Below, in pieces: positions 26,047 to 40,870 of a stretch of DNA of 40,959 nucleotides. Within the stretch, counting starts at the first letter, position 1. Each line of letters begins with the position of its first letter. The notes under the pieces are model-generated. The model ran no database searches. It was not told the DNA's origin and saw nothing but the letters and a program-made list of their open reading frames with translations. Source of the DNA: Chelativorans xinjiangensis (lineage in GTDB: Bacteria > Pseudomonadota > Alphaproteobacteria > Rhizobiales > Rhizobiaceae); assembly GCF_009812055.1 (NCBI RefSeq), contig NZ_WQNH01000044.1, positions 1-40,959 on the forward strand, given 5' to 3'. Both the position numbers and the translations under genes were made by a program.

Positions 26047-26991
26047 CTATTTCAGCGCCCCGACCTCACGGTAGTACCGCTCCGCACCCGGATGCAGCCC
26101 GCCGCCGGGAACATCGGCCATTTCCTCGACGGTAAGCTCGGCAAATGAGGCATGCAGCGCGCGCACCGCGTCGATGTTCTCCGCGAGTGCCCTGGCGATC
26201 CAGTAGGCCTCCTCCTCGGGGATGTCGGCGGCACTCACCACCAGCATGCTGGCGGAGAGCGTGGGCACGTCCTCGCCCTGTCCCTCGTAGCTTTCCGCCG
26301 GGATCGTCGCCCGCCCCACTGTCGGCATCTCGGCGGCCACCTTTGCAAAAGTATCGTCCGGGATCGGCACGAGCCGGATCGGCACGGTGCTTGCAAGCTC
26401 CGCAACCCAGCTCGACGGGTAGGTGGCGATGGAGACCATACCGTCGGAGCGCCGGTCCTTCATGGCCTCGGTCTGCTCGGTCAGGCTGCCCTTCGACAGA
26501 CGCAGGTCGCCCTCCGACAGGCCGTAGGCGGAAAGCACCCGGTCGAACACCACGGCCGTGATCGAGCCGGGCGGCTGCGTCACGAAGGGGCGGCCCTTCA
26601 GGTCCGCCACGGTCGAGATCTCCTCCGTGCCGTCGATGATGATGTGCATGATGCTGTCGTCGAGCCGGGCGATGACGGCGACATTCTCGATCGGCGCGTC
26701 GAAGGGCGCCTGGCCGTTCCTTGCCACGGTGACGGCCGGCGACATGGTGAAGCCCAGCTCGCCCTTGCCTGCGGCGACGTTGGCGATGTTGGAGAGGGCC
26801 GCTCCGAGTTCCGGATTCGACTGCACGCCCTTTTTCCCGAAGATCTCGGCCATGCCGGCGCCGATGCCGTACCAGCTGCTGCCGGAGACGGAGGTGAAGA
26901 TGGTGATGCTGTCGGGCTTCTCCTGTGCTGCCACCGGCAGTGACAGCGTTCCGGCAAGGAGCGCGGCGGCGAGGGCGAGCCTTCTATGCAT
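26047..26991 (-). CDS. TAXI family TRAP transporter solute receptor
   Basis: This 314-residue periplasmic binding protein has a signal peptide (MHRRLALAAALLAGTLSLPVAAQ). Family features follow: FTSVSGSSWYGIGAGMAEIF, then LGAALSNIANVAAGKGELGF and the FVTQPPGSITAVVFDRV region. TAXI receptors bind small carboxylates, often glutamate or similar acids, and hand them to a fused TRAP permease, which is the next gene. The ATG at 26991 follows GGGAGACC; the frame to 27048 overlaps the end of the preceding gene. The ligand is unknown. Confidence 0.95.
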   Translation of the reverse strand: MHRRLALAAALLAGTLSLPVAAQEKPDSITIFTSVSGSSWYGIGAGMAEIFGKKGVQSNPELGAALSNIANVAAGKGELGFTMSPAVTVARNGQAPFDAPIENVAVIARLDDSIMHIIIDGTEEISTVADLKGRPFVTQPPGSITAVVFDRVLSAYGLSEGDLRLSKGSLTEQTEAMKDRRSDGMVSIATYPSSWVAELASTVPIRLVPIPDDTFAKVAAEMPTVGRATIPAESYEGQGEDVPTLSASMLVVSAADIPEEEAYWIARALAENIDAVRALHASFAELTVEEMADVPGGGLHPGAERYYREVGALK

Positions 26992-27020
26992 GTCGGTCTC
27001 CCATTGTTGTGGCCTTCCCT

Positions 27021-28298
27021 TCAGGCCGTTGCGGTTTTGGCTGCGCACAGCGCTTCGTCACGGCTAAGATACGCCCAGGCCTCGGCGAGCGAGCGGAAGG
27101 CGGGCGGCGCATCGGCCGCATCGCTCGAGCGGTCGACGTCCTTGAGGCCGCTCGCCGTGACGAGCGCTACGACACTATCGGAGGCGGCGATGACGTTCCT
27201 CCGCCGCATTTCGGCGATGGCCGCGAAGGGCGTGACCGAGGCAAGCTCGGCGAAGATGCCTTCCCGGGCGGCAAGCCTCTCCTGGAGCGCGATGAGGCCC
27301 GAATTGTTAACCGGTACCGCCGCGCCGTTCGATTCGCGCAGGGCCTTGAGCGCTTGGAAGGTACTGCGCGTCGCGCCGATCGATACCGCGAGCGTGTCGA
27401 AACGCGCAGGCATGTCGGGGATCGGGTCTTCCTTGGCCGCCAGGGCGGCGGCAAGCGATCCGTGAACCTCGGCCGCGAGCAGCCTGGGCAGGTGGTCGAT
27501 TGTGCGCCGGCGGTGCAGCTCCTTGAAGCCTTCCCAGAGGCCGAAAAGCGCGTCGCCGTAGCAGACGGGCAGCACGCACCAGTCTGGCACCTTCCCGCCC
27601 ATTTGCTCGACGATTTCCGGGGCGAGCGTCTTGTAGCCCTCGATGCCGATCGGATGGCTGCCCACCACCGGCGCATGGAAGGGGGAGGTGGCGAACCAGC
27701 CGAGGCGCCGGACGCCTTCAGCTACCAGCGGCCACCGGTCGGCCTTCTCGGAGAGCGCCACCACCGTCGCGCCATATTTGCGGATCTGCGTCAGCATCGG
27801 TCCGGCGGTGCCGGCGAAGGTGACCACCACACAGGAGAGGCCGGCGCGCGCCGCGTAAGCCGCGAGCGAGGCCCCGGCATTGCCGGAGGAAGCCGTCGCC
27901 ACCACGCGCGCGCCCTGAAGCCGTGCCATGGAGACGGCGACGGTCGAGAACCGGTCCTTGTGCGACCAGGTGGGATTGCGCCCCTCGTCCTTGACGAGCA
28001 GATTGGGAACGCCGAGTTCCTGCCCCAGCGCGGGCACGGGAAGCAGCGGTGTCAGCCCCTCGCCAAGCGACACCGCTTCGCCGGCTGCGCAGGGAAGCAT
28101 GTCAGCGTGGTGCCAGAGGGTGGGCACGCGTGCCGAGAGGCCGCCGCCATCAGCATGCCTACCGGCCTCATCGTAGACAACCTGCAGGTTGGCCGGCGCC
28201 TTGTCGAAGCACCGCAGGCAGCCGCGCGAATCGATCGCATAATCGGCCGGGTGACGGGTGCCGCAGCGGATACACGAGTAGCCGATCATGCGGCTCAT
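27021..28298 (-). CDS. Threonine-synthase-like PLP-dependent enzyme with zinc-ribbon N-terminus
   Basis: This 425-residue fold-type II PLP enzyme has the PLP lysine in NPTWSHKDRFS (K114), the phosphate/substrate motif ATASSGNAGASLAAYAA (134-150) and a TFAGTAGPMLTQIRKYGA segment. The N-terminus has two CxxC pairs (C9/C12 and C27/C30), a small zinc ribbon seen in many threonine-synthase-like proteins. Because it lies with a TRAP importer and an AceE-like enzyme rather than with homoserine genes, a catabolic lyase or beta-replacement role is more likely than threonine biosynthesis. Its ATG overlaps the IclR stop (ATGA). A cysteate-synthase-like or diaminopropionate-type role is possible. Confidence 0.88.
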   Translation of the reverse strand: MSRMIGYSCIRCGTRHPADYAIDSRGCLRCFDKAPANLQVVYDEAGRHADGGGLSARVPTLWHHADMLPCAAGEAVSLGEGLTPLLPVPALGQELGVPNLLVKDEGRNPTWSHKDRFSTVAVSMARLQGARVVATASSGNAGASLAAYAARAGLSCVVVTFAGTAGPMLTQIRKYGATVVALSEKADRWPLVAEGVRRLGWFATSPFHAPVVGSHPIGIEGYKTLAPEIVEQMGGKVPDWCVLPVCYGDALFGLWEGFKELHRRRTIDHLPRLLAAEVHGSLAAALAAKEDPIPDMPARFDTLAVSIGATRSTFQALKALRESNGAAVPVNNSGLIALQERLAAREGIFAELASVTPFAAIAEMRRRNVIAASDSVVALVTASGLKDVDRSSDAADAPPAFRSLAEAWAYLSRDEALCAAKTATA

Positions 28299-33159: not shown

Positions 33160-33678
33160 TTAAAGGACGGGCTTTGCAGAAGTATTCCGCGGCGATGGGG
33201 TCCAGAAGCCTTTGTGCACCTTCGCGGATTCTTCGGCGAGAAGGGGGCCGATAACCTCGACTTGCCGCTGCCCGGCGGCGAAGACATCGCGACAGGGCAG
33301 GTCCATCGTCAGGTTCTCGGGATCGGGGCCGATCAACTCCTTGAGCGCTTTCTCGCTCATCCCGTGCACGACCCGTCCCACCCCCGCCCAATAGACCGCG
33401 CCAGCGCACATCGCGCAGGGCTCGGCGCTGGTGTACATGGTGCAGCCGGCGAGGAAATCCGCGTCGTATTTCAACGAAGCTTCGGTCATCAAGTTGCGTT
33501 CCGCATGTCCGGTGCGGTCGCCCCTCGTGCCACAGGTGTTCATCGCCTCCAAGAGGATGTTGCCGTCGGGATCTGCCAGGAGCGCGCCAAAGGGATGATC
33601 GCCGCGGGCTCTCGATTGTTCGGCAAGCTCCATCGTGCGGCGGAGAAGTTCAAGTTCGCGCGTGCTTTCGATCGTCAT
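33160..33678 (-). CDS. Nucleoside/guanine deaminase-like zinc deaminase
   Basis: This 172-residue enzyme of the cytidine-deaminase-like superfamily has the zinc and proton-relay motifs GHAERNLM and SAEPCAMCAGAVYWAG. The size and the E-P-C-x-M-C-x-G-A-x-Y-W motif resemble GuaD (guanine to xanthine) more than tRNA adenosine deaminase. The ATG at 33678 is preceded by AAAGGAG; a longer frame to 33768 lacks a site. It is divergent from the riboswitch-linked transporter operon. Deamination of guanine, producing xanthine for the locus, would fit, but other amino-purines or pterins cannot be excluded. Confidence 0.88.
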   Translation of the reverse strand: MTIESTRELELLRRTMELAEQSRARGDHPFGALLADPDGNILLEAMNTCGTRGDRTGHAERNLMTEASLKYDADFLAGCTMYTSAEPCAMCAGAVYWAGVGRVVHGMSEKALKELIGPDPENLTMDLPCRDVFAAGQRQVEVIGPLLAEESAKVHKGFWTPSPRNTSAKPVL

Positions 33679-33842: not shown

Positions 33843-33886
33843 AAACAGGCATATTTCCGTTTGGCACGCTTCCTGCATGGCTGTTC

Positions 33887-33933
33887 GTGAGTAGAAGCGG
33901 TCAGGGCGAAAGGCCCGGGACATTGCTCGGCAC
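33887..33933 (+). promoter_or_regulatory. NMT1-motif (xanthine-I) riboswitch, copy 1
   Basis: The element contains GAGTAGAAGCGGTCA, then a GGGC-GAAAG-GCCC hairpin (33904-33916), then GGGACATTGCTC closing on the first strand through GAG/CTC. The second copy at 38078 has the same loop bases but different, still complementary, helices, which is the pattern of a conserved RNA. From memory it matches the NMT1 motif shown to bind xanthine and urate and found upstream of NMT1-type transporters in alphaproteobacteria. It lies 145 nt upstream of exactly such a gene. How it switches expression here is not evident; a stable hairpin follows at 34011-34045. Confidence 0.85.
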
Positions 33934-34010
33934 AAAAGCGATCCTGAGATGAGGGGCGTACATGCCGGCTTTCTTTCTGCTCTGTGTGAATTCCCTGCAA
34001 ACCGTTCATC

Positions 34011-34045
34011 GCCGGCGCCCAAGTCCTTGGGCGGGGTGCGCCGGC
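34011..34045 (+). other. Strong GC-rich hairpin in the leader of the binding-protein mRNA
   Basis: CGCCCAAG (34016-34023) pairs with CTTGGGCG (34026-34033), and GCCGGC at 34011-34016 can pair with GCCGGC at 34040-34045. The structure sits between riboswitch copy 1 and the ribosome site, 33 nt before the start codon. No U-tract follows. It could be the expression platform (Rho-dependent or ribosome-access control) or a stability element. Confidence 0.45.
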
Positions 34046-34077
34046 CATCGCAACCTGCCTGAGAGGATCATCCGAAG

Positions 34078-35076
34078 ATGAAGAGAATGATCGTGAAGAC
34101 TTTGCTTGGCGGAGCGTTCGCCGCGACTGCTGCCATCTCGGCCGCGCTGGCCGCCGACAAGGTAGTCTACCAGCTCGATTGGCTGCCGGGCGGCGATAAG
34201 GCCCCTATCTATGTCTGTATCCAGACGGGCTTCTGCGCCGAAGAGGGGCTTGAGGTAACGATCGAGGGCGGCCGCGGCTCTTCGGAGGCGATCACCAAGC
34301 TCGCCACCGGCGTCTCCGATATCGGCTCGGCAGGCATCGGTGCGCTGATGTCGGCCAAGGCAGGTGAGGGGGTGCCGGTCACCGCGGTCATGTCGCTATT
34401 CAACAAGGGCCCACATGCCTTTTACGCCCTCGTCGGAAGCGGCGTCGAAAAAATCGAGGATGTGAAGGGCAGGAGCGTGGCGACATCGCCCTTCACCGAG
34501 TCCAATATTTATCTGCCGCTTGTGCTTCAGGACATGAGCATGGCGGAAACCGACATAACACTCACCAAGGCCGATCCCGGCGCGCTCGGCCCCATGCTGA
34601 TGACTGGGGCAACGGACGTGATCATCGCCTGGCTGACCGATGTCAGCCGCTACACCGGCCAGGCGAAGGAAGCAGGCAAGGAACTCGTCATTTTCCCGTG
34701 GTCCGCGGCCGGCCTGGAGCTTTATTCGGCCTCGCTCGTCGCCTCGGACAAGTTCCTCAAGGAGCGCCCGGACGTCGCGCGGCGCTTCATCGAGGCTTAC
34801 AAGAAGTCGATCGCGTTTGCGTATGAGAACCCAAAGGAGGCTGCCGAGGCCGTCGCCGCCGCGGTGCCCGAGCTTTCGGTCGAAAATGTCGAGGGCTCGC
34901 TGAAGGACGCCATGGTGCTCGTCTTCAACGAGGTCACCGAGAAAGACGGTCTCGGCGCGTTCGAGCCGGAGCGGCTGAAAGCCACATGGGAGCGTGTCTC
35001 CAAGGCGCAGGGCCTGGATCCCACAGCGCTCGATCCCGAATCGATCGTCGACCGCAGCTTTGCAGCGGGGAGCTGA
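34078..35076 (+). CDS. NMT1/THI5-like ABC transporter substrate-binding protein
   Basis: This 332-residue periplasmic binding protein has a signal peptide (about 1-26, ending SAALAADK). The mature part begins VVYQLDWLPGGDKAPIYVC, the NMT1/THI5-like signature, followed by GLEVTIEGGRGSSEAITKLA and the DIGSAGIGALMSAKAGEG region. This family brings in thiamine pyrimidines, taurine-type compounds or other small molecules. A xanthine-type riboswitch in its leader argues for a purine or purine-like substrate. GAGAGG precedes the ATG by 12 nt. It heads a four-gene operon with the ATPase, permease and an amidohydrolase. Confidence 0.94.
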   Translation: MKRMIVKTLLGGAFAATAAISAALAADKVVYQLDWLPGGDKAPIYVCIQTGFCAEEGLEVTIEGGRGSSEAITKLATGVSDIGSAGIGALMSAKAGEGVPVTAVMSLFNKGPHAFYALVGSGVEKIEDVKGRSVATSPFTESNIYLPLVLQDMSMAETDITLTKADPGALGPMLMTGATDVIIAWLTDVSRYTGQAKEAGKELVIFPWSAAGLELYSASLVASDKFLKERPDVARRFIEAYKKSIAFAYENPKEAAEAVAAAVPELSVENVEGSLKDAMVLVFNEVTEKDGLGAFEPERLKATWERVSKAQGLDPTALDPESIVDRSFAAGS

Positions 35077-35081
35077 CGGCG

Positions 35082-35858
35082 ATGAGCACCGCGGTGCCAG
35101 CCATCCGCTTTTCCAGCATAGGACAGGTGTTCCGCACGGGGTCCGGCACGCTTGAGGCATTGCGCGGCATCGACATGACAGTCGGCCGCCACGAGTTCGT
35201 GGCGGTCCTCGGGCCATCGGGCTGCGGCAAGTCCACGTTGCTGCGTTTGACCTCCGGCCTGATCCGGCCGACGAGCGGGACGGTTGAGGTCTTCGGCCAC
35301 CCGGTCAGCGAACCGCGTGACGATATCGGCATCGTCTTCCAGAAGCCGACCCTGCTGCCTTGGGCGACGGTGGAGGACAATATCGTCTTCCCCGCGCGTC
35401 ATAAGACCGGACGCGTCGGAGGCGATGACCGCGAGAAGGGCCGCGTTCTCATAGCAAGGGTCGGACTGCAGGGTTTCGGGAAGCAACTGCCCGCCGAACT
35501 GTCGGGCGGCATGCAGCAGCGCGTAGGCATTGCCCGCGCGCTGTTCATGAACCCCGACATACTGCTCATGGATGAGCCCTTTTCCGCTCTCGATGCGCTC
35601 ACGCGTGAAGAGATGGGGTTCGAGCTTCTGCGCATCTGGGAAGCCCAGCCAAAGACGGTGATGTTCATCACCCACTCGATCGGCGAGGCGGTGCTGCTCG
35701 CCGATCGCGTTCTGGTGATGAGCGAGCGCCCCGGCCACATCGTGGAAAACCTCCGTATCGAGCTGCCGCGTCCGCGCGGCATCGACACCAGCAACAACAA
35801 GGCCATGCATGACTATGTCGGATACCTCAGAGGCCTCCTCCTTAAGCGTGCGGCCTGA
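35082..35858 (+). CDS. ABC transporter ATP-binding protein (nitrate/sulfonate/NMT1 type)
   Basis: This 258-residue ATPase has Walker A GPSGCGKS (44-51), a Q-loop Gln at 87, the signature LSGGMQQR (140-147), Walker B ILLMDEP (160-166) and the switch His198 in FITHSI. It is of the SsuB/TauB type that energises NMT1-family importers. GGGGAG lies 9 nt before the ATG at 35082, 5 nt after the binding-protein stop; the earlier frame start lies inside that gene. Its 3' end overlaps the permease start by about 50 nt. Confidence 0.95.
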   Translation: MSTAVPAIRFSSIGQVFRTGSGTLEALRGIDMTVGRHEFVAVLGPSGCGKSTLLRLTSGLIRPTSGTVEVFGHPVSEPRDDIGIVFQKPTLLPWATVEDNIVFPARHKTGRVGGDDREKGRVLIARVGLQGFGKQLPAELSGGMQQRVGIARALFMNPDILLMDEPFSALDALTREEMGFELLRIWEAQPKTVMFITHSIGEAVLLADRVLVMSERPGHIVENLRIELPRPRGIDTSNNKAMHDYVGYLRGLLLKRAA

Positions 35859-36654
35859 GCGGAGCGAGACCCGGCGCCAGGTGATGGCCCGCGCGATCCG
35901 AGCGCCGGGCGTGTTGCCCGCCGCGACCTTCGTGCTCATTCTGCTGGTCTGGGAAGCTTCCTGCCGCGTCTTTGCCATTCCTTCCTTCATTCTGCCGGCG
36001 CCGACGCGCGTCCTGGGCGGGTTTGGCGCCGTCGACACCGCGCGCTGGCTCGAACATGTGTGGGCGACACTGCGCGTGGCCATGACCGGATATTTCCTCT
36101 CGATCGCGATCTCGCTGCCGCTTTCGATCATGCTGTCGCGCTCGGAAATCCTGTCGCGCGCGATCTACCCCATTCTGGTGGTGATCCAGGCGACGCCCGT
36201 TGTCGCCATCGCACCCGTCATCATCGTCGCGCTCGGCTCGGGCGACCTGCCGAGGGTGGTCATCACGTGCCTCATCACTTTTTTCCCGCTCGTCGTCTCC
36301 ACCACCACGGGCCTGATGGCGACGCCGCCCGAACTGATAGAATTATCGCGCAGCCTGCGCGCCCCCGTCTTCAGAGAAATCACCCAGATCAGGCTTCCCT
36401 ATGCCGTTCCCTATCTCTTCTCCGCACTCAAGATCTCGATCACGCTGGCGATCATCGGCGCTGTGGTGGCCGAGTTCGTCGCGGCGGAAAAGGGCCTCGG
36501 CTACTACATCCAGTTCTCGACTTCGATGTTTCAGGTCCAACAGGCCTGGGCGGGCCTCATCGTGCTGGTGCTGCTTTCCCTGATCCTGTTCCAGATCGTC
36601 ACCGCCATCCAGCGGTTCTGGTTTCCCTGGAGTCTGCCGGGTGACCGCACATGA
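35809..36654 (+). CDS. ABC transporter permease (SsuC/TauC-like)
   Basis: This 281-residue BPD-type permease has six or so hydrophobic spans and the cytoplasmic coupling loop ELIELSRSLRAPVFREITQI, followed by RLPYAVPYLFSALKIS. It starts within the ATPase gene (ATG 35809; ATG 35815 is an alternative) and its stop overlaps the next start as ATGA. Together with the two preceding genes it forms a complete importer, presumably for a purine-related substrate judging from the riboswitch. Confidence 0.95.
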   Translation: MTMSDTSEASSLSVRPERSETRRQVMARAIRAPGVLPAATFVLILLVWEASCRVFAIPSFILPAPTRVLGGFGAVDTARWLEHVWATLRVAMTGYFLSIAISLPLSIMLSRSEILSRAIYPILVVIQATPVVAIAPVIIVALGSGDLPRVVITCLITFFPLVVSTTTGLMATPPELIELSRSLRAPVFREITQIRLPYAVPYLFSALKISITLAIIGAVVAEFVAAEKGLGYYIQFSTSMFQVQQAWAGLIVLVLLSLILFQIVTAIQRFWFPWSLPGDRT

Positions 36655-38051
36655 CGAGCTTTCTCATCAGGAACGCAGTGGGCATTCTTACCGGGCTCAA
36701 CGACACGGCAGCGCGCGCTGCCGGTGACATCCGCGTCCGCGACGGGAAGATCGCGGCCATCGGCGAACTCAGGCCGCTGCCGGGTGAGCGCATAATCGAC
36801 GCCTCCAACGCGGTTGTCACACCCGGCCTCGTCAACACCCACCACCACCTTTTCCAGAGCGTGCTCAAGGCCGTGCCTGAAGGCATGAACGAGGCGCTCG
36901 CCGCCTGGCTGCGCCTCGTCCCCTATTCCTATTGGGACAGGATCGACGAGGAAGCGCTGCGCGTCTCGGCCATGATCGGCCTTGCGGAACTGGTACTGTC
37001 CGGCGCTACGACCGTAGCCGACCACCATTATTTCTACTCCGACCGCTATGAGTATGATCCCGGCGACGTCCTCTTCGAGACCACGGCGCGTTTCGGTGTC
37101 CGCTTCGTTCTGGCGCGTGGCGGCGCCACGAAGGGCCGCAAGTTCGACGGCGACGATATCGCGCCTGTTCCCGTCGAGTCGCTCACCAAGATGATCGACG
37201 CCGTGGCCGCAACTGCTCGGCGCTGGCACGACCCTTCTCCCGATGCCATGCGCCGTGTCGCCTTCGCCCCGACGACGCCGACCTTCTCGCTCGGCGAGCC
37301 GGAATTGAAGGAGGTCGCTTCCGCCGCGCGCGCGATGGGGCTTCGCCTGCACAGCCATCTTTCCGAGAACATGGACTATGTGGCCTACACGCTCGCCAAT
37401 TACGGCAAGCGCCCGGTGCATTGGCTTGCCGAGCACGATTGGCTGGGGCCTGATGTCTGGTTCGCCCATCTGGTCGAGTGCGCGCCGGATGAGGTGCGCC
37501 TTCTGGCGGAAACGGGAACGGCCATGGCACATTGCCCGCAGGCGAATGCCAGGCTCGGCTCAGGCATCGCGCCAGCGGCCACGCTCGATGCGCTCGGCGG
37601 AACGGTGTCGCTGGCCGTCGATGGAGCGGCTGCGAACGAGGCAGCCGATATGGCTTCCGCACTCTATGCCGCCTTCGCGATCCAGCGCGCCGCAAACGGG
37701 GTGGGCGCGACGACGGCTGAATCGGTATTGCGCTGGGCGAGTGCCGAAGGGGCGAAGGCACTGGGCTTCGACGCCATCGGGACGATCGAGGTCGGCAAGC
37801 ACGCCGACATCGCCATCTTCGACTTGGGCGCGCCACGCTATTTCGGTCAGCACGACCGCGTTGTCGGCCCGATCGTCTCTGGCGGCGAGGCGCGGGTGCG
37901 TCACAGCTTCGTGGGCGGACGCGCGCTGGTGGAAAACTACAGGATACCCTGGCTCGACCTCGCTCAGCTCGATGCCGATGCCGCCCGAGTCGTCGGCAAG
38001 ATTGCAAAGAAGACGTCGGAAACGGAGGAGAAAACCCGGGCCATCGGCTGA
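36651..38051 (+). CDS. 8-oxoguanine-deaminase-like amidohydrolase
   Basis: This 466-residue TIM-barrel deaminase belongs to the AtzB/guanine-deaminase-like branch of the amidohydrolases. Metal and catalytic residues are visible: H64 and H66 in VNTHHHLFQ, H236 and E239 in LRLHSHLSEN, H273 in FAHLVE and D324 in SLAVDGAA. The N-x-HHHL-x-Q start is typical of 8-oxoguanine and isoxanthopterin deaminases. 8-Oxoguanine deaminase yields urate, which suits an operon whose leader has a xanthine/urate riboswitch. It overlaps the permease stop by 4 nt, so transport and deamination are coupled. Isoxanthopterin or another oxidised pterin is an alternative substrate. Confidence 0.88.
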   Translation: MTSFLIRNAVGILTGLNDTAARAAGDIRVRDGKIAAIGELRPLPGERIIDASNAVVTPGLVNTHHHLFQSVLKAVPEGMNEALAAWLRLVPYSYWDRIDEEALRVSAMIGLAELVLSGATTVADHHYFYSDRYEYDPGDVLFETTARFGVRFVLARGGATKGRKFDGDDIAPVPVESLTKMIDAVAATARRWHDPSPDAMRRVAFAPTTPTFSLGEPELKEVASAARAMGLRLHSHLSENMDYVAYTLANYGKRPVHWLAEHDWLGPDVWFAHLVECAPDEVRLLAETGTAMAHCPQANARLGSGIAPAATLDALGGTVSLAVDGAAANEAADMASALYAAFAIQRAANGVGATTAESVLRWASAEGAKALGFDAIGTIEVGKHADIAIFDLGAPRYFGQHDRVVGPIVSGGEARVRHSFVGGRALVENYRIPWLDLAQLDADAARVVGKIAKKTSETEEKTRAIG

Positions 38052-38077
38052 GGGAGTGGCCGTCCCAGCCATACATC

Positions 38078-38119
38078 GGAGTAGAAGCAGTCAACGCCAT
38101 CGGCGCCGGTCATTGCTCC
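38078..38119 (+). promoter_or_regulatory. NMT1-motif (xanthine-I) riboswitch, copy 2
   Basis: GGAGTAGAAGCAGTCA opens the element, then CGCC-ATC-GGCG forms the inner hairpin (38095-38105), then CCGGTCATTGCTCC closes it; P1 is GGAG/CTCC (38078-38081 with 38116-38119). The conserved loops match copy 1 while both helices have different base pairs. It lies 46 nt upstream of the dioxygenase start. The 3' strand can alternatively pair downstream: ATTGC (38112-38116) with GCAAT at 38133-38137 or 38142-38146, and CTCC with the GGAG of the ribosome site (38155-38158). Ligand-stabilised P1 would then free the ribosome site. Confidence 0.85.
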
Positions 38120-38164
38120 TCTTTGTCACGCGGCAATCGCTGCAATTTTCAAACGGAGTGAACA

Positions 38165-39166
38165 ATGGAAACCACAGCAGCAAAGAAGGACTACGCGCTC
38201 GCGGAACTCAACAAGGAAGCGACTTTCGGCGGCATGGGCCGGGTCAAAGAACGGGCCGTTCCGCAAGTCGACCTCAGTGATTTCGAGCGGCGCAAGGCGG
38301 AGATCGCCGACCAGCTCTGGGAAGCATCGACGCAGATCGGCTTTTTCCAGCTCGTCAATCACGGCATTCCCCAAGCACAGATCGACGAGGCCTTCGAGTT
38401 CACGGCCCGCTTCTTCGATCTCGCAGCCGAGGTAAAAGCGAAATATCCGCTGCGCAAAGGCACGAATGCGGGATGGGAGTACAAGGCGCAAGTTCGACCT
38501 TCCACCGGGACAGCCGACAACAAGGAAAGCTATCAGATCACCCTGCCGCGCATGGCCGATCTCTGGCCGACGGGCGAGGAACTCCCTGGCTTCAAGGCCG
38601 TCATGCTGGCTTTCGAGCGCGCCAACTGGGCGCTCGGCATGAAGGTGCTGTCCTGCTTTGCGCTCAAGCTTGGCTTTGCGCCCGATTTCTTCACCGACGC
38701 GCATGATCCGATGTCGCCGGAATACCAGAGCACGCAGCGGCTGATCCACTATTTGCCGATGCAGAACGCGAAGCCGGAAGACTTTACGGGTTGGCGAGCC
38801 GGCGCCCATACCGACTTCGATTGCTTGACCCTCCTGCACCAGCGCGTCGGCCAGGGCGGACTGCAGCTATGCCCAGGTAAGGAAGCGGGGTCGGGTGAAT
38901 TGGAGTGGACCGACGTCCCGCCACTGCCGGGCGTCGTCACCTGCAATATCGGCGACATGCTCATGCGCTGGAGCGACGATCAGCTGCAATCGACGCTGCA
39001 CCGGGTGCGCATGCCGCGGGAGGACGAATATCTCGGCCCGCGCTATTCGCTGCCCTTCTTCTGCCAGGCCAATAAGGATGCCGTGATCCAGGGACCGGGG
39101 AAGAAATATGACCCGATCACCGCGCACGATTATCTTCAGCAACGCATCGTAGCGAACAGCCTCTAG
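38165..39166 (+). CDS. Isopenicillin-N-synthase-family Fe(II)/2-oxoglutarate dioxygenase
   Basis: This 333-residue oxygenase has a DIOX_N region (VPQVDLSDFERRK, FFQLVNHGIPQAQI) and a 2OG-Fe(II) double-stranded beta helix. The iron triad is H215-x-D217 (GAHTDFDC) and H279 (STLHRV), and the 2-oxoglutarate carboxylate pair is R293/S295 (PRYSLPFF). Members hydroxylate or oxidise small molecules in the cytoplasm. Riboswitch copy 2 directly precedes it (ACGGAG ribosome site 7 nt before ATG), so xanthine or urate probably controls it. A purine-hydroxylating activity is therefore a reasonable hypothesis; the family itself does not reveal the substrate. Confidence 0.92.
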   Translation: METTAAKKDYALAELNKEATFGGMGRVKERAVPQVDLSDFERRKAEIADQLWEASTQIGFFQLVNHGIPQAQIDEAFEFTARFFDLAAEVKAKYPLRKGTNAGWEYKAQVRPSTGTADNKESYQITLPRMADLWPTGEELPGFKAVMLAFERANWALGMKVLSCFALKLGFAPDFFTDAHDPMSPEYQSTQRLIHYLPMQNAKPEDFTGWRAGAHTDFDCLTLLHQRVGQGGLQLCPGKEAGSGELEWTDVPPLPGVVTCNIGDMLMRWSDDQLQSTLHRVRMPREDEYLGPRYSLPFFCQANKDAVIQGPGKKYDPITAHDYLQQRIVANSL

Positions 39167-39189: not shown

Positions 39190-39963
39190 TCAGGCCCGCT
39201 TCTGGCGCGTGAGAAACGGGATCAGCGCCCCCGCGAGTTGCGCGGGGGCGCTGATGTGAGGTACGTGGCCTGCATCGAGCATTACCCGCTCGGCGCCCGG
39301 CACGAGTTCTTGCATGCGTCTTTGCAGTTCGTGCGCCACGGAGCGGTCGCGCAGGCATTCGATGTAAAGCCGCGGGAGCCTGTTGAAGCGGGAGTCCGTC
39401 CAGCGCACCGCGACGTCGCGCCCACCCTGGGGTTGCGGCGTCAGCCGGGCAAGGGCTGCAAGCGCCGCATCGTGCGCCATATCGCTCAGGAAGATCTCCG
39501 CTGCGGCTTCCGTCGGAACGGCAGTGGACTGGCGATCAGGCGACCACACGAGATGCGGGCCGATGCCGGCGAGCCCCCGGTCGGCCGCGCGCTCATCGGC
39601 CAGAAATTCCGCGAAGCGCATGCCGGACGGCAGCATCATGCCGGCGATATAGGCGACGCGGTCGACCTTCCCGGCGAGCGCTTCTGCGGCAGCGGTGGCC
39701 ACCACGCCTCCTCCAGAATGGCCGACAAGGCTCACGCAGCCTTTTGTTGCCGCGACGATCTTTTCGATGTGCTGTACATAAAGGTCGAGAGAAACGGCCT
39801 CCGGAGACGTGTCGTCGTGGCCGTTTCCCGGCAGGTCTACAGCAATTGCCGCAAGCCCTGCATCTTCGAGCAGCGGCATCAGCCTTGTCCAGACCCAGCT
39901 GCCCTGCCATGCGCCGTGGATCAGGATGACGGTGCTGGCGCCGGCTTTGTCAGGCGGCCGCAT
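39190..39963 (-). CDS. Alpha/beta hydrolase (esterase/hydroxynitrile-lyase-like)
   Basis: This 257-residue hydrolase has the oxyanion motif IHGAWQGSWVW (15-25), the nucleophile elbow GHSGGG (S83), an Asp in YIECLRDRS and His in DAGHVPHIS. It resembles the plant methylesterase/hydroxynitrile lyase group and bacterial EstC-like esterases. It overlaps the stop of the upstream dioxygenase gene by 14 nt, so the two are one operon. It converges with the other dioxygenase, with 23 nt between the stops. The substrate is unknown; hydrolysis of an oxidised purine product would suit the locus but is speculative. Its 3' coding region contains a 35-nt perfect hairpin. Confidence 0.9.
   Translation of the reverse strand: MRPPDKAGASTVILIHGAWQGSWVWTRLMPLLEDAGLAAIAVDLPGNGHDDTSPEAVSLDLYVQHIEKIVAATKGCVSLVGHSGGGVVATAAAEALAGKVDRVAYIAGMMLPSGMRFAEFLADERAADRGLAGIGPHLVWSPDRQSTAVPTEAAAEIFLSDMAHDAALAALARLTPQPQGGRDVAVRWTDSRFNRLPRLYIECLRDRSVAHELQRRMQELVPGAERVMLDAGHVPHISAPAQLAGALIPFLTRQKRA
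39221..39255. terminator. 15-bp perfect inverted repeat in the end of the hydrolase gene
   Basis: ATCAGCGCCCCCGCG (39221-39235) is followed by AGTTG and its exact reverse complement (39241-39255). It lies in the last 70 bp of the hydrolase coding sequence and 55-89 nt past the stop of the converging dioxygenase gene. It would form a very stable hairpin in both transcripts. No U-run follows, so it may act as a bidirectional block to read-through or as a 3' stability element. Confidence 0.55.
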
Positions 39964-40870
39964 AGGTCTTGCGGTACATGGCCTGCAAATGCTCCTCCAC
40001 CGTAATCGGCGGATAGCGGGGCGTTTCTCCGGGCGACAAGCAGGTGGGGATGCAGGAGACTTTATGATCGGGATTGCCGGTAAAGAAGAACGGGATCGAA
40101 TAACGCTCCCTTCCGGACCTGTTGATCACGCGGTGCAGCGTGGAGCGATAGCGGTCATTCGTCCACCGGGCGATCATATCGCCCAGGCTGACGACGAAAG
40201 TCCCCGGTATGGGTGTGGCCTCGATCCAGCTTTGCGTCGCGTTGTCGAAAACCTGCAGGCCGCCCACTTCATCCTGGAGAAGAAGGGTCAGTCCGCCGAA
40301 ATCCGTGTGCGCGCCGGCGCCGAGTTCGTCGAGCGCCGATTGGGCCGGCTGAGGCGGATAGTGCAGCAGCCGCAGGATCGCCAGCGGATCGCGCGAGAAG
40401 CCGGCGAAATGGTCCTCCTTGAGATCGAGCGATAGTGCCAGTCCGCGCATCAGCCGCTCGGCGAGATCGAGCATGGCGGCATGATAGGCGCGCATGACAG
40501 GCCGGAAGCCGGGAAGGTCTTGCGGCCACTGGTTCGGTCCGTGATTGAACTTCCGTGCCTGCACGCGGGGATCGTCTTCGGGCAACTCCAATCCAATATA
40601 GTAGCCTTCCTTCATGTCCGGCTTGGCGCCGGCCTGCAGCGTCTGGCCGCCGAGCGGCTCGTAGCCACGATTACAGAAGGAAAGGGACTTCGACACCCGC
40701 TCCTTGACCTCCGCCCGCTGGCTGAAGAAGGCGCGGGTTTCCTCGAAGGCGGCATCGATCAGGCCCTGCGGGATGCCGTGCCCGGCGCAATAGAAGAACC
40801 CCTTGTCAAGGCACGCTTCGCGCAAGGCCTGGCCGACCGCCTTGCGGGCGGCGGGATCTGAAGCGGACAA
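39950..40870 (-). CDS. Second isopenicillin-N-synthase-family Fe(II) dioxygenase; start uncertain
   Basis: This oxygenase of about 306 residues has the DIOX_N segment GFFYCAGHGIPQGLIDAAF, the iron triad H188-x-D190 (GAHTDFGG) and H246 (STLHRV), and R256/S258 (ERYSIPFF). It differs clearly from the other dioxygenase of the locus. The best reading frame begins at TTG 40870 without a visible ribosome site. The natural start should be ATG 40909, which overlaps the upstream stop as ATGA and is in the same frame, but TGA at 40886-40888 (codon 8) interrupts it. The strand normally before the DIOX_N helix (VIDLS-like) is not seen intact. The gene may be damaged at its 5' end or initiate at TTG. Confidence 0.8.
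   Translation of the reverse strand: MSASDPAARKAVGQALREACLDKGFFYCAGHGIPQGLIDAAFEETRAFFSQRAEVKERVSKSLSFCNRGYEPLGGQTLQAGAKPDMKEGYYIGLELPEDDPRVQARKFNHGPNQWPQDLPGFRPVMRAYHAAMLDLAERLMRGLALSLDLKEDHFAGFSRDPLAILRLLHYPPQPAQSALDELGAGAHTDFGGLTLLLQDEVGGLQVFDNATQSWIEATPIPGTFVVSLGDMIARWTNDRYRSTLHRVINRSGRERYSIPFFFTGNPDHKVSCIPTCLSPGETPRYPPITVEEHLQAMYRKTYAAA

Follow-up and report, generated by a model that had tools for sequence, protein, structure and literature searches.

In this report we describe two riboswitch aptamers in a 40,959-nucleotide stretch of Chelativorans xinjiangensis (contig NZ_WQNH01000044.1), referred to as the window. The best overall explanation, to which we give a probability of about 0.7, is that both are real aptamers of the xanthine-I (NMT1) class, that they lie in one operon, that they are of two subtypes, and that they control their genes in differing ways. 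New here are the two subtypes, which we call G-type and W-type, and the differing expression platforms; two copies per genome already have a published precedent in Hydrogenophaga intermedia, for which two adjacent, opposing xanthine-I copies were reported (PMC7373994). This study and two others (PMC8266621 and PMC9295807) are cited from excerpts throughout. The subtypes were not found in the xanthine-riboswitch, NMT1 or dioxygenase literature, searched by titles and the openings of abstracts, with subscription journals mostly outside the scope.

An earlier note on this DNA, made from the letters alone, had named the NMT1 motif, and a check with Infernal and the Rfam model showed that this class assignment was right. 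At curated thresholds (gathering score of RF03054: 36), cmscan matched RF03054 to both copies (Table 1) and put no other family above its threshold in the window. A third RF03054 match was absent from the 5.69 Mb genome at E 0.001. On sequence grounds, membership of both elements in the xanthine-I class is practically certain, and sensing of xanthine or urate by both copies is predicted from it.

Stems P1, P2a and P2b and the conserved bulge are present in both copies. The strings common to the two elements are as the earlier note gave them, and so is the difference in the inner helix P2b (GGGC/GCCC in copy 1, CGCC/GGCG in copy 2). The covariation also claimed for P1 was not there: P1 (GAGUA/UUGCUC) is the same in both, copy 2 merely adding one outermost G-C pair. 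Over columns 6-21 and 39-51 just four differences separate copy 1 from copy 2 (G/A at 16, G/A at 21, G/C at 40 and A/U at 43); P2a of copy 2 has U.U at 18-43, and an A.C mismatch opens its P2b. Column 16 is G12 of the crystal structure and the column pair 18-43 is crystal 14-37. The residues required for binding in that structure (G7 to C11, G35, A39, U40 and the pair A6-U41; PMC8266621) are unchanged in both copies, and the less conserved positions of G12 and C34 differ. With G12 and U14-A37, the crystallised RNA is G-type (sequence from PMC8266621).

The subtypes were defined on aptamers collected by a pattern scan, which gave 80 loci among the matches listed, of 117 stretches. Duplicate loci (L051, L083 and L102; 5 of 129 rows) were dropped. 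Among the loci listed, columns 16 and 43 change together in 117 of 119 distinct aptamer cores: G16 occurs with A43 in 47 cores and with G43 in 19, and U43 accompanies A16 in 35 and U16 in 16. By these counts a standard 18-43 pair accompanies G16, and U.U or G.U accompanies A16 or U16. One exception is A16/G43, and the other, G16/U43, has a restored A18-U43 pair. The mutual information of columns 16 and 43 is 0.885, the next pair reaching 0.291, and Fisher's test gives 1.8e-31, a value that ignores relatedness. The near-invariance of P1 and of columns 17 and 44 in the 119 cores is due to the scan pattern, which fixes them.

The same rule was followed by held-out aptamers, found by Infernal and not by the pattern. 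This set had 41 loci, three with a core already seen, and 36 were counted, distinct by core sequence and not by lineage; 33 of these obey the rule. All three exceptions (L179, L183 and L185) have G16 with U43 and carry U17 and C44. Two unparsed loci were judged by eye, L168 as agreeing with the rule and L173 as an exception. We consider it very probable that the G-type and W-type represent a real structural subdivision.

Subtype is associated with the downstream gene, with the reservation that the association tests ignore shared ancestry. Leaving aside 8 of 124 aptamers without a usable downstream open reading frame (ORF), the first downstream gene is a dioxygenase for 39 of 50 W-types and 4 of 66 G-types. 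In the held-out set a dioxygenase follows all 10 W-types and 8 of 26 G-types. Tandem loci combine a G-type copy 1 with a W-type copy 2 in 14 of 15 cases, among them the window. The exception is copy 2 of L022, in which G16 and A43 appear together and whose dioxygenase is nested in a W-type clade (99/94 support). In the dioxygenase tree the U16 label changes at least four times, with U43 kept.

Paired aptamers are common in relatives. Matches were present in 9 of 101 genomes (own included), each with exactly two, on one strand and one contig, 2.8-4.3 kb apart; in G001 the second RF03054 copy scores below the cut-off. Pooling the related genomes with the class, order and phylum samples gave 35 distinct genomes with a match at E 0.001, 25 of them with two or more at that level and 20 with two or more above the cut-off; searches over 40 genomes used stricter filters, by which weak matches are lost. 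A tally of 87 loci, many of which end at 8 kb, contained 50 with one aptamer and 37 with two (14 tandem G+W, 13 divergent G+W, 9 divergent G+G and 1 tandem G+G), 11 further divergent aptamer-like elements being left out.

Two side observations concern locus arrangement (minus-strand positions in reverse-complement numbering). The Tardiphaga locus L060 (-) has a tandem G-type and W-type at 476 and 689, 213 nucleotides (nt) apart, before a dioxygenase and with no importer genes between them; it looks like a collapsed operon retaining both aptamers. Aptamer-like elements at L048 (-) 6315, L052 (+) 4046, L091 (+) 1254 and L093 (+) 1636 are apparently without columns 18 and 43, one P2a pair being gone on both sides as judged by eye, and in L052 and L091 such an element is flanked by a W-type aptamer and the dioxygenase.

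The two copies had been placed on two transcripts by the earlier note, which does not agree with the gene spacing. Copy 2 begins 22 nt (its core 27 nt) past the stop of the same-strand amidohydrolase gene and for that reason reads as intra-operonic, in an apparently single polycistronic importer-deaminase-dioxygenase operon whose genes overlap or almost touch. No promoter-like site was found just before copy 2 using the sigma-70 consensus, which alphaproteobacterial promoters may escape, and no terminator-like site just before or after it. Close spacing of this kind recurs in 18 of 41 dioxygenase-linked aptamers, where a same-strand ORF of at least 200 amino acids ends no more than 60 nt before the core.

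The leader between aptamer 1 and the binding-protein gene is about 145 nt long. In it, a GGCA after P1 pairs with UGCC to form a hairpin that encloses a ribosome site and reaches the start codon of a possible leader ORF. All 17 copy-1 leaders examined from alphaproteobacteria carry an ATG or GTG 26-39 nt past P1, which is unremarkable alone, and a ribosome-site match of -4 kcal/mol or lower stands ahead of that start in 13. The GGCA/UGCC match is found in 9 of the 17, i.e. in all nine having GGCA, several of which come from one genus; the fraction of control genes with a comparable flank match was at most 0.108 for any flank tested. Leader ORFs are coupled or in frame in 12 of 16 cases against 7.0 expected (p 0.009, with starts set by hand and relatedness ignored), which is suggestive of translational coupling. 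The copy 1 leader fits ligand-dependent OFF control, the published sign, relayed by such coupling, and because the hairpin abutting P1 hides the leader ribosome site in the model, copy 1 is probably an OFF switch.

For the leaders in general, folding was carried out on 97 of 116 (14-150 nt), and loss of P1 was modelled by barring only its 5' strand. A comparison matched for GGAG used the 59 dioxygenase and amidohydrolase leaders among the 97. These platform tests ignore relatedness. Sixteen 'kin' dioxygenase leaders, copy-2-type leaders from kin of the window, which include G140 from another order and the G-type L022, were compared separately from 24 other dioxygenase leaders, which include the G-types L066 and L073.

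In the kin leaders, opening the ribosome site with P1 formed costs 2.05 kcal/mol, against 4.34 in GGAG-matched controls (p 6e-4), and barring the P1 5' strand lifts the cost by 2.55, against 0.59 in controls (p 5e-4). In the window, the minimum-energy fold of the copy 2 leader has CAUUG and CUCC paired with the start codon and ribosome site, replacing P1. Leaders of binding-protein genes are close to controls (for 20 G-types, 0.79 against 0.21 with a mean quantile of 0.55; for 8 W-types, 0.81 against 0.42). An exposed ribosome site with a folded aptamer argues, on the model, against simple OFF control and allows ON. The energies include neither ligand nor coaxial stacking, so the sign cannot be fixed by them. 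Copy 2 may be either ligand-activated or weakly ligand-repressed; that it is an ON switch is possible, though we put this at somewhat less than an even chance. By the energy model, OFF control through hiding of the ribosome site fits copy 1 in part and does not fit copy 2.

Two readings of the copy 2 platform were rejected. One was simple ON control by unusually strong pairing between the ribosome site and the P1 3' strand; in 37 W-type dioxygenase leaders this pairing did not exceed that of control genes. The other was a linker hairpin as a separately conserved element: most of 15 related copy-2 leaders folded have one, of differing sequences, and the linkers do not surpass mononucleotide shuffles in stability (z -1.9 to +0.9, 15 leaders).

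Ribosome-site pairing may be stronger in amidohydrolase leaders (n=16, median quantile 0.05), but GGAG-matched folding of 19 gave only p 0.08. In five amidohydrolase leaders (L053, L059, L068, L071 and L110) the P1 3' GCUC and the next bases complement the ribosome site (AAAGGAGC or AGAGGAGC). This complementarity exceeds that of control genes (quantiles 0.00-0.05) and is hard to reconcile with simple OFF control.

A mechanism for the window can be proposed as follows. Binding of ligand to copy 1 would close the leader start site and shut down import and deamination. Copy 2 would control only the translation of the dioxygenase, whose ribosome site is predicted to be free with the aptamer folded and able to pair with the aptamer 3' strand once P1 is lost. 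As a result the supply of a xanthine/urate-like ligand would fall while the dioxygenase, which may use the ligand, stays on, and a putative coordination of uptake and breakdown is plausible. In its fullest form the proposal has opposite signs in one operon, a G-type copy 1 turning import off and a W-type copy 2 turning the dioxygenase on, with the W-type as a structural subclass marked by tertiary 16/18-43 covariation and recurring in alpha-, beta- and gammaproteobacteria. That full form seems to us rather unlikely.

Several results weigh against the best explanation. The copy-1 leader site is hidden in the model with or without P1 (mean quantiles 0.68 and 0.69). The accessibility effect in the kin leaders arises because the folded state has little structure; when P1 is barred, the site is buried no deeper than in controls (4.60 against 4.93, p 0.78). 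Copy 2 of the window is unremarkable by itself (quantile 0.78), its P1-formed ensemble lying at most 0.3 kcal/mol from the free ensemble. In the 24 other dioxygenase leaders the site is no more accessible than in controls when P1 is formed (3.98 against 4.19, p 0.61), and their shift on barring P1 is weaker (p 0.02). In the 37 W-type leaders the ribosome site and the P1 3' strand pair with a mean quantile of 0.60, or 0.73 when GGAG-matched (0 being strongest). Ten of the 50 W-types stand before NMT1 proteins, and the held-out G-types before a dioxygenase point the same way. Finally, the sole reporter assay at hand shows OFF, on another species' leader.

In that assay, mutation of a conserved nucleotide of the pocket raised expression from the H. 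intermedia leader (PMC7373994), as would be expected if both copies were ordinary OFF switches, by which xanthine or urate represses the importer and deaminase and, separately, the dioxygenase, all of them ligand-making. The authors likewise have the regulated genes acting upstream of xanthine and urate (PMC7373994). This is a serious contender, if short of even odds, and it has to contend with the 16 kin copy-2 leaders, whose ribosome site is not hidden when the aptamer is folded, and with the lack of a terminator-like site around copy 2. The copies could also share sign and ligand and differ in affinity, the importer being shut first and the dioxygenase later. Copy 2 has A at column 16, the G12A change in the crystallised RNA weakened xanthine binding 7-fold (PMC8266621), and the Rfam score of copy 2 is below that of copy 1. 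We find this doubtful; the value for the single mutant may not apply, because A16 or U16 nearly always comes with U43.

The identity of the gene products bears on the ligand. The gene neighbourhood was as the earlier note described it, with copy 1 before an NMT1-type importer and a deaminase and copy 2 before a dioxygenase; its label of '8-oxoguanine-deaminase-like' was not supported. The amidohydrolase scores 392 bits with the 8-oxoguanine deaminase model NF006055 (NCBIfam), below the cut-off of 532, and passes the PRK12393 model NF009059 (NCBIfam) with 631.8 bits (cut-off 543). Among solved structures it is closest to 2paj (411 bits), which we take to be an isoxanthopterin deaminase, ahead of 3hpa (261 bits), presumably an 8-oxoguanine deaminase. 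The dioxygenase is about equally near 9ovh, 3oox and the thymine dioxygenase 5c3p, with roughly 100 bits for each. Its most obvious substrate would be xanthine, a pteridine-dione being a long shot.

Models for xanthine dehydrogenase and urate oxidase are above cut-off elsewhere in 10 of 10 riboswitch genomes checked, own included. Since both enzymes are encoded elsewhere, the operon is not the sole route onward from xanthine. These facts and the relationship to 2paj would suit a natural ligand other than xanthine, e.g. a pteridine-dione made by the amidohydrolase, with xanthine as a mimic, although the two enzymes say little here, only riboswitch-bearing genomes having been compared. The function of the dioxygenase was not established in the original study, as excerpted (PMC7373994), which leaves room for such a ligand. 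It is nevertheless improbable: the pocket encloses the purine save at C8, with little space for a six-six ring (PMC8266621), and isoxanthopterin, among the compounds purchased for the original work, does not appear among the binders in the excerpt (PMC7373994).

Table 1. Features of the locus, in window coordinates.
Feature	Position	Strand	Basis or remark
CMP/dCMP-deaminase-fold gene (TadA/guanine-deaminase-like), divergent from copy 1	33160..33678	-	profile and sequence inspection
Copy 1 aptamer, G-type (G16, U18-A43)	33884..33933	+	RF03054, 53.6 bits, E 2.6e-9
Hairpin abutting P1 (GGCA/UGCC), proposed OFF platform	33929..33966	+	leader sequence comparison
Possible leader ORF, 39 codons	33962..34081	+	stop overlaps binding-protein start (ATGA)
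NMT1/THI5-like ATP-binding cassette (ABC) substrate-binding protein	34078..35076	+	PF09084, 134.7 bits
ABC transporter ATPase	35082..35858	+	PF00005; ORF opens 34986, start 35082 by inspection
ABC transporter permease	35809..36654	+	PF00528; first possible start, overlaps ATPase
Amidohydrolase, NF009059/PRK12393 family	36651..38051	+	nearest solved relative 2paj
Copy 2 aptamer, W-type (A16, U18.U43)	38074..38123	+	RF03054, 44.6 bits, E 8.2e-7
Small hairpin (GCGGC/GCUGC) between aptamer 2 and ribosome site	38130..38143	+	folding
Dioxygenase ribosome site (CGGAGU) and start codon	38154..38167	+	complementary to aptamer 2 3' strand (CAUUGCUCC)
2-oxoglutarate (2OG)-Fe(II) dioxygenase (DIOX_N and 2OG-FeII_Oxy, 'pcbC-like')	38165..39166	+	domain profiles

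The divergent deaminase-fold ORF reaches 33768, and the start at 33678 is favoured by an AAAGGAG ribosome site there. Homologues of this gene neighbour the importer genes, in the same orientation, in L050, L055, L077 (Marinomonas) and L086 (Vibrio). Beyond the operon, the opposite strand carries genes for an alpha/beta hydrolase and for another 2OG-Fe(II) oxygenase at 39193-40870 (-). Both have homologues in L057, L081 and L107 that lie behind the dioxygenase and share its strand, an association that suggests a longer pathway. At 26050-27048 (-) a second NMT1-like (NMT1_3) binding protein lies beside a pyridoxal-phosphate enzyme and an IclR regulator, with no riboswitch match.

In the published view, purine transport and oxidation are under OFF control (PMC7373994). 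Yu and Breaker remarked that breakdown genes for oxidised purines are missing from the riboswitch-linked genes and that their activation might be expected (PMC7373994). An ON switch at copy 2, together with use of the ligand by the dioxygenase, would close this gap and make it possible to test what an uncharacterised dioxygenase family does. For a small aptamer whose structure has been solved, the covariation of columns 16 and 43 makes a concrete structural prediction, and the natural occurrence of both leaders in a single operon offers a ready test of how one aptamer can be wired to two outputs.

Compared with known systems, the aptamers agree with xanthine-I (RF03054; Yu and Breaker 2020, Xu et al. 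2021) in sequence, in the P1/P2a/P2b fold and in the binding nucleotides. The published gene set is also alike, comprising an NMT1 protein, a PRK12393 amidohydrolase, a pcbC-like dioxygenase and a tadA-like gene (PMC7373994). Xanthine-II, a guanine-riboswitch variant, also senses xanthine, is found near dioxygenase, allantoinase and xanthine dehydrogenase genes, and has an architecture that suggests ON control (PMC9295807). Its fold is different, being a three-stem junction (PMC9295807), and no purine-riboswitch match was found in the window at curated thresholds. Unlike the G-type xanthine-I crystal RNA, copy 2 of the window is W-type with A16 and U43. Unlike the published xanthine-I arrangements, the window has two same-strand copies with the second inside the operon, and the predicted platform of copy 2 departs from sequestration of the ribosome site in the folded state.

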